Of a DNA stretch of 64,000 nt, positions 12,574 to 15,457 are shown in pieces. Positions within the stretch are counted from its first letter, which is position 1; each line of letters opens with the position of its first letter. The position numbers and the translations under genes were made by a program. Where the stretch lies: the NCBI RefSeq assembly GCF_017963645.1, contig NZ_JAGMWN010000003.1, forward strand, positions 186,001-250,000, read 5' to 3'. The stretch comes from Marivibrio halodurans. GTDB lineage: Bacteria > Pseudomonadota > Alphaproteobacteria > UBA8366 > Aestuariispiraceae. Below the pieces are notes generated by a model. It did not search any database and had not been told where the DNA came from. It saw nothing but the letters and a program-made list of their open reading frames with translations.

Positions 12574-13167
12574 TCAGTTGAGCCAGGTCGGTGCGCGGTC
12601 GGTATCCTTCCCCCGCTCAGGCACCATGCCGAAGGCACGCTCCCGCCCGCTCGGTTCTTCCAGCCCCAGCGACGGCCGGTCCGTCGGGCAGGCCCCATGG
12701 GGGGCGAGTGCGGCGGCGAGTCGCTGCGCGGCCTCGGCCAGATCGAGTCCCGCGGTCAAAGCCTGCGCGCCGTCCGAATAGGGATCGAGGCCGATAAGAT
12801 CCGCCGCCAGGCCCCGCGCCCTGTCGATCCGGCCCGTCCCGGCCACCGCCACGAGGTTGAGCAACCGCAACTCGTCCGCCGATAGACACGGGCAACAGGC
12901 GGCGTGATGCTGAATGGTCCGCCGGGTGCTGTCCCGAAGTCGTTCCACGAGCAGGATCAACGCCGCCATGATCGGCCGGCCCGGGCGCCCCCCGAACCGC
13001 GTGGCGATCTGGTTCCAGGCCGCGTCGCAAGCCGGCCCACCCTCGACCCAGCGACGGAAGGCGCGGATCAGGACGCGCTCCTCCTCCGCCAACCCATCCA
13101 GGCGAACCGGTTCATCCAAGCCGTCCCCGAATCCACCGCCGGACGGGCGAAAGCGCATATGCGTCAT
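12574..13167 (-). CDS. Unknown cysteine-motif protein behind a Fur/Irr-type box
   Basis: This 197-residue protein has no signal peptide or membrane segment. The visible hallmark is AACCPCLSADELRLL near residues 88-102, a CCxC cluster that recalls the CCCxxxTPAE stretch of the DUF6628 family, to which I tentatively liken it. Upstream of this is a helical segment with an aspartate/arginine-rich face, and the last 35 residues are polar and probably disordered. GGAGG precedes the ATG by 13 bases. A near-perfect iron-box palindrome lies 90 bases upstream, so the gene is probably repressed by Fur or controlled by Irr. Its function is unknown; a role in iron or haem handling is inferred only from that site and from the bfd-bfr neighbours. 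Confidence 0.6.
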   Translation of the reverse strand: MTHMRFRPSGGGFGDGLDEPVRLDGLAEEERVLIRAFRRWVEGGPACDAAWNQIATRFGGRPGRPIMAALILLVERLRDSTRRTIQHHAACCPCLSADELRLLNLVAVAGTGRIDRARGLAADLIGLDPYSDGAQALTAGLDLAEAAQRLAAALAPHGACPTDRPSLGLEEPSGRERAFGMVPERGKDTDRAPTWLN

Positions 13168-13256
13168 GATCTGAAAAGGCCTCCATGCCTCGACGTCGTT
13201 GCCGTCCCCTCATGGTCGGCGGTCACCTTTCCGGTGCCGCCGCCCCACAAATGTAA

Positions 13257-13279
13257 TTGCAAGTCATTCGCACTTGCAA
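13257..13279. promoter_or_regulatory. Fur/Irr-type palindrome
   Basis: The arms TTGCAAGT (13257-13264) and ACTTGCAA (13272-13279) are perfectly complementary around CATTCGC. This fits alphaproteobacterial iron boxes of the TGCAAnT-ATTnGC-AnTTGCA kind. It sits 90 bases before the unknown gene at 12574-13167 and 55 bases before the metY promoter, so it most likely controls the former. Confidence 0.7.
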
Positions 13280-13333
13280 GAATAAATCGGCCCGGGTCGC
13301 ATCGGCAATCCACAGTCGGGCGCCGTATTTTCG

Positions 13334-13366
13334 TTGACGCCTCACGACACCGCTGCTAGCCATAAT
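13334..13366 (+). promoter_or_regulatory. Candidate promoter of the SAM-II/metY transcript
   Basis: TTGACG at 13334-13339 is followed after 17 bases by TAGCCATAAT. This would place the transcript start at about 13370, right at the first aptamer helix. The -10 is imperfect; the fit to the aptamer position is the main support. Confidence 0.45.
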
Positions 13367-13370
13367 CGCG

Positions 13371-13425
13371 TAGCGCCGATTTGAGGCTCAGCTTGCGGGC
13401 GCTTTAAAAATGCAGCTAAAGCGGG
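13371..13425 (+). ncRNA. SAM-II riboswitch (metA motif)
   Basis: Helix P1 is AGCGCC (13372-13377) with GGCGCT (13398-13403). The conserved L1 GATTTGA follows P1 at 13378-13384. The 3' conserved strand is AAAAATGCAGCTAAA then GCGGG, with the same spacing as the known SAM-II aptamer ending GCUAAA-N2-GGG. The pseudoknot can form between GCTTGC (13391-13396) and GCAGC (13412-13416), and between CTC (13387-13389) and GGG (13423-13425). SAM-II binds S-adenosylmethionine and represses methionine genes in alphaproteobacteria. It lies 174 bases upstream of metY, with an intrinsic terminator between. Confidence 0.9.
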
Positions 13426-13434
13426 TTGGTGCGG

Positions 13435-13471
13435 AAACCGCCCAGCCCCGTCGATGGCTGCGGCGGTTTTT
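13435..13471 (+). terminator. Intrinsic terminator acting as riboswitch expression platform
   Basis: Arms 13435-13442 (AAACCGCC) and 13462-13469 (GGCGGTTT) pair, with an inner CAGCC/GGCTG extension and one bulged C. The stem runs into five T (13467-13471). It starts 10 bases after the SAM-II aptamer. A competing hairpin pairs 13423-13434 with 13438-13448 and would sequester the terminator's left arm, so the pair looks like a terminator/antiterminator switch. Confidence 0.8.
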
Positions 13472-13598
13472 CTGTGCCCCGTGACGGGTTCCGCGCCGGG
13501 TCTTCCCGGCGCCGTTCGCCACGCCTCCGCAAGCGATCCTCGCACCGGTCCGGCCGGTATCGGCGCCAATAGTCGAAACCCAAGGAGGGAGCGTTCCC

Positions 13599-14903
13599 AT
13601 GCCGATCGACAGCAAGAATCCCCAAACCCTCGCGCTTCATGCCGGTTATCGCGCCGATTCGGCGACCGGCGCCGTGGCCGTGCCGATCTATCAGACCACC
13701 AGCTACCAGTTCGACAATGCCGAGCATGCGCGCAAGCTGTTCGCGCTAGAGGAGCTCGGCAATATCTACAGCCGCATCATGAACCCGACCTGCGACGTGC
13801 TGGAGCAGCGGGTGGCGGCGCTGGAAGGCGGCGTCGCGGCGCTCGCCGTCTCCTCCGGTCAGGCGGCCAGCGCCTTCGCGGTCCAGAACATCGCGCATGC
13901 CGGCGACAATATCGTCAGTTCCACCGACCTCTATGGCGGCACCTGGAATCTTTTCGCCAACACCCTGAAGGATCAGGGGATCGAGGTGCGCTTCGTCGAT
14001 CCCGCCGACCCGGAGGCCTTCCGCGCCGCGGTCGATGAGCGGACCCGCGCCTTCTATGCCGAGACCCTGCCGAACCCGAAGCTGCAGGTCTTCCCGATCG
14101 CGGAGGTCGCCGCGATCGGTCGCGAACTCGGCATCCCCCTGATCGTCGACAACACGGCCGCGCCGGTCCTCTGCAAGCCGTTGGAGCACGGCGCGGCGAT
14201 CGTCGTTTATTCGACGACCAAGTATCTCGGCGGGCACGGCACGACGATCGGCGGCATGATCGTCGATGGCGGCGACTTCCCCTGGGAAGACTTCAAGCAG
14301 CGCCAGCCCTATCTGAACGAGCCCGACCCCTCCTATCACGGCGCGGTCTGGACGGAGGCGGTGAAACCACTCGGCCCGATCGCCTATATCATCAAGGCGC
14401 GGGTCACGCTGCTGCGCGACCTCGGCAGCGCGCAGAGCCCCTTCGACGCCTTCCAGACGATCCAGGGGATCGAGACCGTGGCGCTGCGCATGCGCGAGCA
14501 CAGCCGCAACGCCGCCGCCGTCGCGGAATTCCTTGAGAAGCACCCGCAGGTCGACAAGGTGATCTATCCCGGCCTGCAGGAGGGCGAGAGCTACAAGCGC
14601 GCCAATCGCTATCTGAAGGACGGGTTCGGCGGCCTCGTCGGCTTCCACGTCAAGGGCGGCCGGGCGGCCGGCGCGGCCTTCATCGACGCGCTGGAGTTGT
14701 TCTACCATGTCGCCAATATCGGCGATGCGCGCTCGCTCGCGATCCACCCGGCGACGACGACGCACTCCCAGCTCTCGGCGGAGGAGCAGGCGGCCTCGGG
14801 CGTCACCGACGCCTATGTGCGCCTGTCGATCGGGATCGAGCATATCGACGATATCCTGGCCGACCTCGACCAGGCGCTGAAGGCGGCCGCCTCCGCCGGC
14901 TGA
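13599..14903 (+). CDS. metY: O-acetylhomoserine aminocarboxypropyltransferase (sulfhydrylase)
   Basis: This PLP enzyme makes homocysteine (or methionine) from O-acetylhomoserine and sulfide. It has 434 residues, the length of the MetY branch (MetZ/MetB enzymes are nearer 390-400). The PLP lysine is in VVYSTTKYLGGHGT near residue 209. YSRIMNPTCDVLE near residue 58 binds the phosphate of the neighbouring subunit, and SSGQAA and DNTAAPVLCKP are further family marks. AGGAGGG precedes the ATG by about 9 bases. Expression is probably set by the upstream SAM-II element and terminator. The choice of O-acetyl rather than O-succinyl substrate is inferred from family length. Confidence 0.92.
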   Translation: MPIDSKNPQTLALHAGYRADSATGAVAVPIYQTTSYQFDNAEHARKLFALEELGNIYSRIMNPTCDVLEQRVAALEGGVAALAVSSGQAASAFAVQNIAHAGDNIVSSTDLYGGTWNLFANTLKDQGIEVRFVDPADPEAFRAAVDERTRAFYAETLPNPKLQVFPIAEVAAIGRELGIPLIVDNTAAPVLCKPLEHGAAIVVYSTTKYLGGHGTTIGGMIVDGGDFPWEDFKQRQPYLNEPDPSYHGAVWTEAVKPLGPIAYIIKARVTLLRDLGSAQSPFDAFQTIQGIETVALRMREHSRNAAAVAEFLEKHPQVDKVIYPGLQEGESYKRANRYLKDGFGGLVGFHVKGGRAAGAAFIDALELFYHVANIGDARSLAIHPATTTHSQLSAEEQAASGVTDAYVRLSIGIEHIDDILADLDQALKAAASAG

Positions 14904-14995
14904 TGGGAATCGCCCGCCGCCCCTGCCGCCCGGCGATCGTCCGGCGGAAGAAGGGGCGGCGGGCGGAACCGACGATGAAGCAAAGGGCGCACGCC

Positions 14996-15457
14996 ATGGT
15001 CTCCCTCTATGTCGATGCGGATGCCTGTCCGGTGAAGGAGGAGACCGTGCGCGTGGCCGAACGGCACGGGCTGCGCGTCGTGATGGTAAGCGACGGCGGG
15101 CTGCGCCCCCACCCGCATCCGCTGGTCGAGACGGTCGCCGTCGCCCAGGGCGCGGACGCCGCCGACGACTGGATCGCGGACCGGATCGGCCCTGGCGATA
15201 TCTGCGTCACCAACGACATCCCCCTCGCCGCGCGGTGCTTGAAATTCAATGCCCACGCGCTGAAACCGAACGGAGAACCCTTCACCCCCGACGGCATCGG
15301 CATGGCGCTCGCCGGCCGCGAGATCGCCCGCCACCGCCGCGAGACGGGCGCGGGGGGTGGCGGGCCGCCCCCCTTCTCGAAGGCCGACCGCTCCCGCTTC
15401 CTCGACCGGCTGGAAACGATGGTGCGGGCGGCGAGCCGCGCCGCGTCCGATGGCTGA
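14996..15457 (+). CDS. yaiI: YaiI/YqxD family protein (DUF188)
   Basis: This is a protein of about 153 residues with the DUF188 signature at its very start (YVDADACPVKEE), then VTNDIPLAARCL and GEPFTPDGIGMALAGREI. The fold is PIN-like with an acidic cluster (DADACP, DDWIA, TNDIPLA), suggesting a metal-dependent nuclease, but no activity is established for the family. The ATG at 14996 is chosen because it puts the signature at residue 3; ATG 14975 and an upstream start overlapping metY are possible. It follows metY closely and may be co-transcribed. Confidence 0.85.
   Translation: MVSLYVDADACPVKEETVRVAERHGLRVVMVSDGGLRPHPHPLVETVAVAQGADAADDWIADRIGPGDICVTNDIPLAARCLKFNAHALKPNGEPFTPDGIGMALAGREIARHRRETGAGGGGPPPFSKADRSRFLDRLETMVRAASRAASDG

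Follow-up and report, generated by a model that had tools for sequence, protein, structure and literature searches.

The locus analysed here raises the question of whether a SAM-II aptamer in front of metY can control this gene by terminating transcription. The original prediction had placed such an aptamer ahead of an intrinsic terminator, had recognised a hairpin that competes with both of them, and had considered a transcriptional platform of such clarity worth study, SAM-II being often described as acting at the ribosome-binding site. We have followed these claims with Rfam searches, folding calculations and a comparison of the leader with its relatives.

The SAM-II aptamer and its gene

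The window, by which we mean the whole 64-kb stretch of DNA that was analysed, belongs to a genome of 4.18 Mb in 22 contigs that is 99.6% complete. SAM_alpha (SAM-II, RF00521) is the sole RNA above the Rfam gathering scores in the whole window. Its match at 13363-13440 scores 43 bits, above the gathering threshold of 36 bits (whole-window E 2.4e-6), which bears out the proposed aptamer, and it is the only RF00521 match in the genome at E 0.001. The aptamer is composed of the following elements.

13372-13427, plus strand: SAM-II aptamer core, from the RF00521 match and from P2 pairing in 13 relatives
13372-13377/13398-13403, plus strand: P1 stem, read from the sequence
13378-13397, plus strand: L1, starting with GATTTGA at 13378
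13415-13420, plus strand: core GCUAAA (GCTAAA in DNA), followed by N2 and then by GGG 13423-13425
13385-13389/13423-13427, plus strand: P2 pseudoknot (H-type), CUC 13387-13389 with GGG 13423-13425, plus two G-U

On the one hand, all of these elements lie where they had been predicted. On the other hand, to call the aptamer textbook was generous, as the P2 of the Rfam consensus is longer and GC-rich, whereas that of the window is short and the score is moderately above the cut-off. Considering this score, P1 and the core, P2, and a methionine gene downstream, we assign the locus to SAM-II. No second SAM-II or SAM-V aptamer was found in 12900-15100 at E 5, and the leader is thus not of the tandem SAM-II type.

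13599-14903, plus strand: metY, O-acetylhomoserine sulfhydrylase, 434 aa (TIGR01326, PF01053)
13582-13588, plus strand: Shine-Dalgarno AAGGAGG of metY in the sequence, 10 bases before ATG 13599

The gene had been correctly named, since its product is of the MetY type (626.7 bits with TIGR01326, whose cut-off is 495.1; E 1.5e-188) and also matches PF01053. Other members of the MetY enzyme superfamily in the genome had no SAM-II match (E 0.001, genome-wide). On the minus strand, a divergent open reading frame of 197 aa at 12574-13167 had no Pfam match at E 0.001, and a terminator-like hairpin lies at 13279-13257.

Terminator and two-part antiterminator

13435-13471, plus strand: intrinsic terminator, stem 13435-13447/13456-13469, U-tract (TTTTT) 13467-13471
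13423-13448, plus strand: inner antiterminator hairpin, GGGTTGG-T-GCGG 13423-13434 with CCGCCCAGCCC 13438-13448
13411-13462, plus strand: outer antiterminator helix, UGCAGCU 13411-13417 with GGCUGCG 13456-13462

The predicted terminator with five T is present and far from chance, with an energy of -21.6 kcal/mol (z -4.44, 0/200 dinucleotide-preserving shuffles as good). AAA 13435-13437 is able to base-pair with three of these T, and a terminator scan reported a part of the terminator, 13448-13466. The alternative hairpin between 13423-13434 and 13438-13448 was also found at its predicted place (z -4.51, 1/200 such shuffles as good), but it is only the inner part of a larger antiterminator. The outer helix that we add, 13411-13417 with 13456-13462, encloses the inner hairpin and takes up part of the GCUAAA core together with the upper 3' arm of the terminator; for the span 13411-13462, z was -4.82 and none of the 200 dinucleotide-preserving shuffles was as good.

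Folding of the free and the blocked leader

The evaluated energies were -22.3 kcal/mol for the terminator, -19.4 kcal/mol for the inner hairpin, -32.1 kcal/mol for P1 with the terminator, and -36.5 kcal/mol for P1 with the inner and outer antiterminator. In the free ensemble of 13369-13472, the terminator had a probability of 0.14, the inner hairpin of 0.62 and the outer helix of 0.86. When GGG 13423-13425 was blocked, the inner hairpin was excluded and the terminator rose from 0.14 to 1.00; it reached 0.985 when 13412-13420 alone was blocked, and 1.00 in a proxy of the bound state. The proposed logic of the switch, in which GGG held in the pseudoknot leads to termination, accordingly holds in silico, although with a larger antiterminator than had been described. 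In transcripts growing to 13448-13456, the minimum-energy fold contains the inner hairpin, either as such or slightly extended; it is there by 13448, ahead of the 3' arm of the terminator. The best single fold is finely balanced, being antiterminated for 13369-13471 (-43.9) and 13369-13475 (-45.3), whereas that of 13369-13472 (-44.1) carries the terminator instead.

Equilibrium energetics were also considered as a proof of switching and were rejected. In a test of switch-like behaviour at equilibrium, 21/108 native leaders passed, compared with 80/432 constructs carrying a swapped platform. Because native and swapped leaders pass alike, we do not use the energetics as proof. That the antiterminator and the bound aptamer are mutually exclusive is indicated by the ensemble of the window and by the conservation of pairs, whereas the switching energetics are not above the swapped controls.

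Conservation among relatives

A search with RF00521 gave matches in 27 of the 43 genomes of the order, from which 30 loci were fetched; more matches were listed, some of them in the family of the window. A pattern scan with the L1 of the window gave at least 118 loci, neither a complete nor a random sample, which, by record title and among the matches listed, come mainly from beta-, gamma- and alpha-proteobacteria. The 118 listed loci yielded 120 pattern hits, of which four were dropped for having no GCTAAA in range. Together with the 30 order-level loci and after removal of duplicates, 145 leaders were obtained, 142 of them long enough for downstream tests. Among the matches listed, 108/142 leaders have a hairpin with a T-run no more than 110 nt from the core, compared with 49/142 when shuffled, and a run of five T occurs in 105/142, compared with 52.7 expected.

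Thirteen of the 145 leaders, chosen by a motif in the 3' arm of the terminator, have the terminator type of the window and were aligned. P1 pairs in 98.7% of cells and the four-pair P2 helix in 93.0%, with two pairs changed on both sides; a fifth P2 pair is formed in 50.0%. The terminator is paired in 88.8% of cells, and four of its pairs show both-side changes. In the inner hairpin, the main helix is paired in 78.7% and the upper helix in 61.2% of cells. The outer helix is better kept: its first six pairs hold in 77/78 cells, with a double change from A-U to G-C in two of the 13, and the seventh pair is found in 3/13. Its invariance is partly built in, because the picking motif lies within this helix; the matching of A/G with T/C is not built in by the choice of motif. 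For P1 with P2 and the terminator, both the covariation score and the number of both-side changes exceeded all 500 shuffles. For P1 with both antiterminator helices, the covariation score again exceeded all 500 shuffles, and the two other measures were not outstanding, with both-side changes reached by 54/500 and further pair types by 144/500.

A general rule by which the core pairs with the 3' arm of the terminator was rejected. The pairing of a leader's own core with its own terminator arm was in the best 10% for 18/108 leaders, just slightly better than when swapped. Between 8 and 90 nt from the start of the core, complements of the core or of L1 are more frequent than expected (TTTAGC in 14/142 leaders compared with 3.6 expected, AGCTGA in 18/142 compared with 1.5 expected), and no single rule behind this enrichment was found in the 142 leaders.

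The -35 of a probable promoter is also conserved.

13334-13339, plus strand: probable -35 box TTGACG, its TTGAC conserved upstream of the leaders of relatives
13357-13362, plus strand: weak -10 TAGCCA, with a 17-nt spacer from the -35

In 27/30 order-level loci, TTGAC is found in the 50 nt that precede the Rfam match. It occurs no more than 70 nt upstream of GATTTG in 113/144 leaders, compared with 27/391 control windows, and in 81 of these 113 leaders it stands at 41-45 nt. A strict sigma-70 scan detected no promoter. The position of TTGACG would put the transcription start at about 13369, a few nucleotides upstream of P1.

Proposed mechanism and alternative explanations

We consider that a putative SAM-II riboswitch very probably represses metY by transcription termination. 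The aptamer, the terminator, both antiterminator helices, the gene and the conserved -35 are supported by the sequence and by comparison; SAM binding, the start site, and the direction and size of the effect are what we infer. Transcription would begin a few bases before P1. When SAM is bound, CUC/GGG and the GCUAAA core would be kept in the pseudoknot. The strands of the antiterminator would then be unavailable, and the terminator at 13435-13471 would form, with release of a ~100-nt RNA. When SAM is lacking, the inner hairpin at 13423-13448 would form before the 3' arm of the terminator is made, and the outer helix would then capture this arm and part of the core, allowing read-through into metY.

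The terminator may instead be constitutive and produce a stable leader RNA, with SAM acting mainly on RNA stability or on translation. Sinorhizobium meliloti metA, where a terminator follows a SAM-II element working at the level of translation, is described as such a case in the part of PMC9373788 that treats it, and its authors were unable to predict a SAM-II-driven antiterminator there; in addition, the leader L022, from the same genus as the window, keeps its terminator without ligand at equilibrium (0.99). In the window, however, two strands of the antiterminator overlap with the terminator arms and are at the same time parts of the aptamer; when the aptamer strands are blocked, the ensemble is flipped. 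As for translation, the Shine-Dalgarno sequence lies 155 bases beyond the P2 strand. We therefore regard a constitutive terminator as unlikely.

Still less probable is a decayed or ligand-changed variant of SAM-II, whose short P2 would give no useful SAM binding or which would sense a related compound. The score of 43 bits is below that of L002-L015, which are 14 order-level loci with 54-74 bits and, judged by their L1 and post-core strands, a longer P2; in the window, P2 is reduced to CUC/GGG with two G-U. Yet GATTTG and GCTAAA are intact in the window, relatives retain P2 with both-side changes, and the ten relatives checked all precede genes related to methionine or SAM (metZ, metX, metN-like, hom, metK, cysG). 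We give hardly any weight to the idea that the hairpins are chance and the site merely a promoter-proximal terminator of an unrelated transcript: the folding energy of the whole 103-nt leader is unremarkable (z -1.29, 26/200 dinucleotide-preserving shuffles as good), but the Rfam match above the cut-off, the shuffles, and the comparative pairing with compensatory changes speak against it.

Relation to known SAM-II systems

Repression by termination, as we propose it for metY, would not be a novelty for SAM-II. Terminators after many SAM-II elements are reported in PMC1273637 (Corbino 2005), and terminators downstream of SAM-II were in print in 2005 and 2007 (PMC1273637, PMC2258182). For S. meliloti metZ, termination has been predicted, and a ~100-nt RNA has been detected whose abundance is higher in high-SAM medium (PMC9373788). 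A novel transcriptional platform is ruled out by what these three sources report, and such an arrangement is not unusual. The description of SAM-II as acting at the ribosome-binding site is in keeping with the metX element employed in structural work (PMC10907184), but terminating SAM-II elements have been known as well (PMC1273637). The window is thus a new but ordinary example of an arrangement of SAM-II and terminator that has been described in related bacteria.

As in RF00521 according to PMC1273637, the window has the core, P1, P2, a promoter just before P1, a methionine gene and a terminator after P2. It likewise resembles the S. meliloti metZ leader and its RZ sRNA, in which SAM-II is joined to a terminator and the terminated RNA measures about 100 nt, compared with a predicted 103 nt (13369-13471) in the window; RZ was measured in cells, as PMC9373788 reports, whereas the RNA of the window is predicted from its sequence. 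Of the 44 tandem SAM-II arrays counted in PMC9481103, some have a terminator first and control at the ribosome-binding site second. In this tandem bi-mechanism type, the first element precedes a terminator, as in the window; unlike it, the window has one aptamer, and leaders of the sister genus have two. A spermidine-type variant was also considered and set aside, as PMC10853860, in the part available, concerns SAM-I. The effects of SAM-II on gene expression were previously unstudied, as stated in the available part of PMC9373788, and the window, a clean case with a calculable two-part antiterminator, would be a convenient test object for transcriptional control by SAM-II.

Leaders with a short P2, the metXZ element and RF02424

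The side results on leaders with the L1 type of the window matter more than the ordinary switch. Among the matches listed, these leaders are widespread in beta-, gamma- and alpha-proteobacteria: at least 118 loci (L031-L148) carry GATTTGANNNTCAGCTTGCGGGCGC and are SAM-II-type leaders with a short P2. The presence of SAM-II in beta- and gamma-proteobacteria had been published before (PMC2704228, in the part available). Nine loci of the pattern scan scored 25.8 to 38.3 bits with RF00521, 2/9 above and 7/9 below the cut-off. Ten downstream proteins were checked; eight of these belong to pattern loci and the other two to order-level loci. The ten were MetZ, MetX in three cases (one just under the model cut-off), a MetN-like ATPase, a homoserine dehydrogenase, an aspartate kinase/homoserine dehydrogenase fusion, MetK, and CysG/uroporphyrinogen methyltransferase in two cases.

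A 'metXZ RNA element' has been described in beta-proteobacteria as a pseudoknotted leader with a terminator and a proposed antiterminator before metX, and it precedes metZ in Nitrosospira and Thiobacillus, among others (PMC4239095). The leaders before metX (L031, L105) and metZ (L037) fit this element as described. In the part of PMC4239095 available, it is reported as a new element and not as SAM-II; among the matches listed, this is the only paper that combines metXZ, riboswitch and SAM-II. Judging from the description in that part rather than from an alignment, the short-P2 leaders before metX and metZ are probably the metXZ RNA element.

RF02424 is Bp2_287, an RT-PCR-supported 'sRNA' of Burkholderia upstream of methionine genes, according to PMC3521395 as far as available. 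This family matches the antisense strand of the window (13377-13459, minus strand) at 30.4 bits, below the cut-off of 70. A search of seven genomes yielded five sub-threshold matches, which came from three of them (L149-L152 are among the loci concerned), and 4/5 of these lie on the opposite strand of a GATTTG...GCTAAA leader. RF02424 may accordingly be a reversed annotation of the SAM-II leader, and leaders of the window's L1 type probably explain both the metXZ element and RF02424. A link between RF02424 and SAM-II was not found in the available portions of the literature naming that family.

A possible anti-aptamer and tandem leaders

Past the terminator, the read-through leader holds a partial inverted copy of the aptamer.

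13527-13541, plus strand: anti-aptamer strand CCGCAAGC, the reverse complement of aptamer 13391-13398 GCTTGCGG, then GATCCTC

Its CCGCAAG (13527-13533) is the complement of the CTTGCGG of the aptamer. At +79 to +119 after the core, CCGCAAG occurs in 8/29 order-level leaders (L028 was too short and was left out), namely in seven of the ten same-family loci fetched and in L026. Among the 142 leaders, it was found nine times at 8-90 nt, compared with 1.4 expected, and eight times at 90-250 nt, compared with 2.5 expected and a highest shuffle of 7. In the minimum-energy fold of 13369-13640, 13373-13399 is paired with 13526-13566. When the downstream part was shuffled 200 times, the number of shuffles pairing as well was 0 for L016 and L017, 1 for L021, 3 for the window, 13 for L023, 36 for L018 and 47 for L022. 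Leaders without CCGCAAG also gave low counts (L024 5, L012 6, L011 7, L014 8); therefore the window alone is not significant, and the alignment test gave p 0.07 for its anti-aptamer. In a 7x7 energy matrix, a small sample of related species, all five anti-regions of the sister genus pair best with their own aptamer opposite the variable L3, whereas in the genus of the window L022 ties and the anti-region of the window prefers the aptamer of L022. When the full region is considered, another aptamer gives slightly better pairing for L023 and for the window, and there is a tie for L022.

We suggest, tentatively and with more doubt than belief, that the read-through mRNA carries a later-made anti-aptamer which would pair with L1 and P1 of the SAM-free aptamer after escape from the terminator. 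It might lock the leader in its read-through form, preventing its refolding by a late rise in SAM, or stop the first aptamer from misfolding with the second. In the sister genus the predicted pairing also reaches L3, and in L016 and L017 it would extend up to the core. The terms 'SAM-II' and 'anti-aptamer' were not found together in the literature searched, a result of little weight for the idea if it goes by other names.

Two wider roles were rejected. As a general feature of SAM-II, pairing at p <=0.01 was found in 11/142 leaders, compared with about 1.4 expected; in some of these leaders the complement lies within the terminator. As for control of the Shine-Dalgarno sequence, its mean accessibility in the fold of 13369-13640 was 0.48, the same in the free and bound-like states; the bound-like fold gains pairing of CCUCC 13524-13528 with the Shine-Dalgarno sequence at about 0.4.

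Tandem leaders were observed in relatives. In the sister genus (L016-L018, L021, L023), a second SAM-II-like aptamer (CGCGGTGATTTGAGGATCAGCTTGCACCGCG...GCTAAAGCG) follows the terminator, and among these five it has an Rfam match at E 0.01 in L017 and L018 only. In L024, L029 and L030, tandem SAM-II elements precede cysG or the gene of uroporphyrinogen-III methyltransferase, a SAM-using siroheme enzyme, the protein of L030 being judged by its resemblance to that of L029. Finally, three leaders of Hyphomonadaceae (L070, L081, L146) hold an inverted copy of part of the 5' half of the aptamer, CCCGCAAGC, about 40 bases after the core; in L146, which precedes a metX-like gene, the inverted copy also includes CAAATC.
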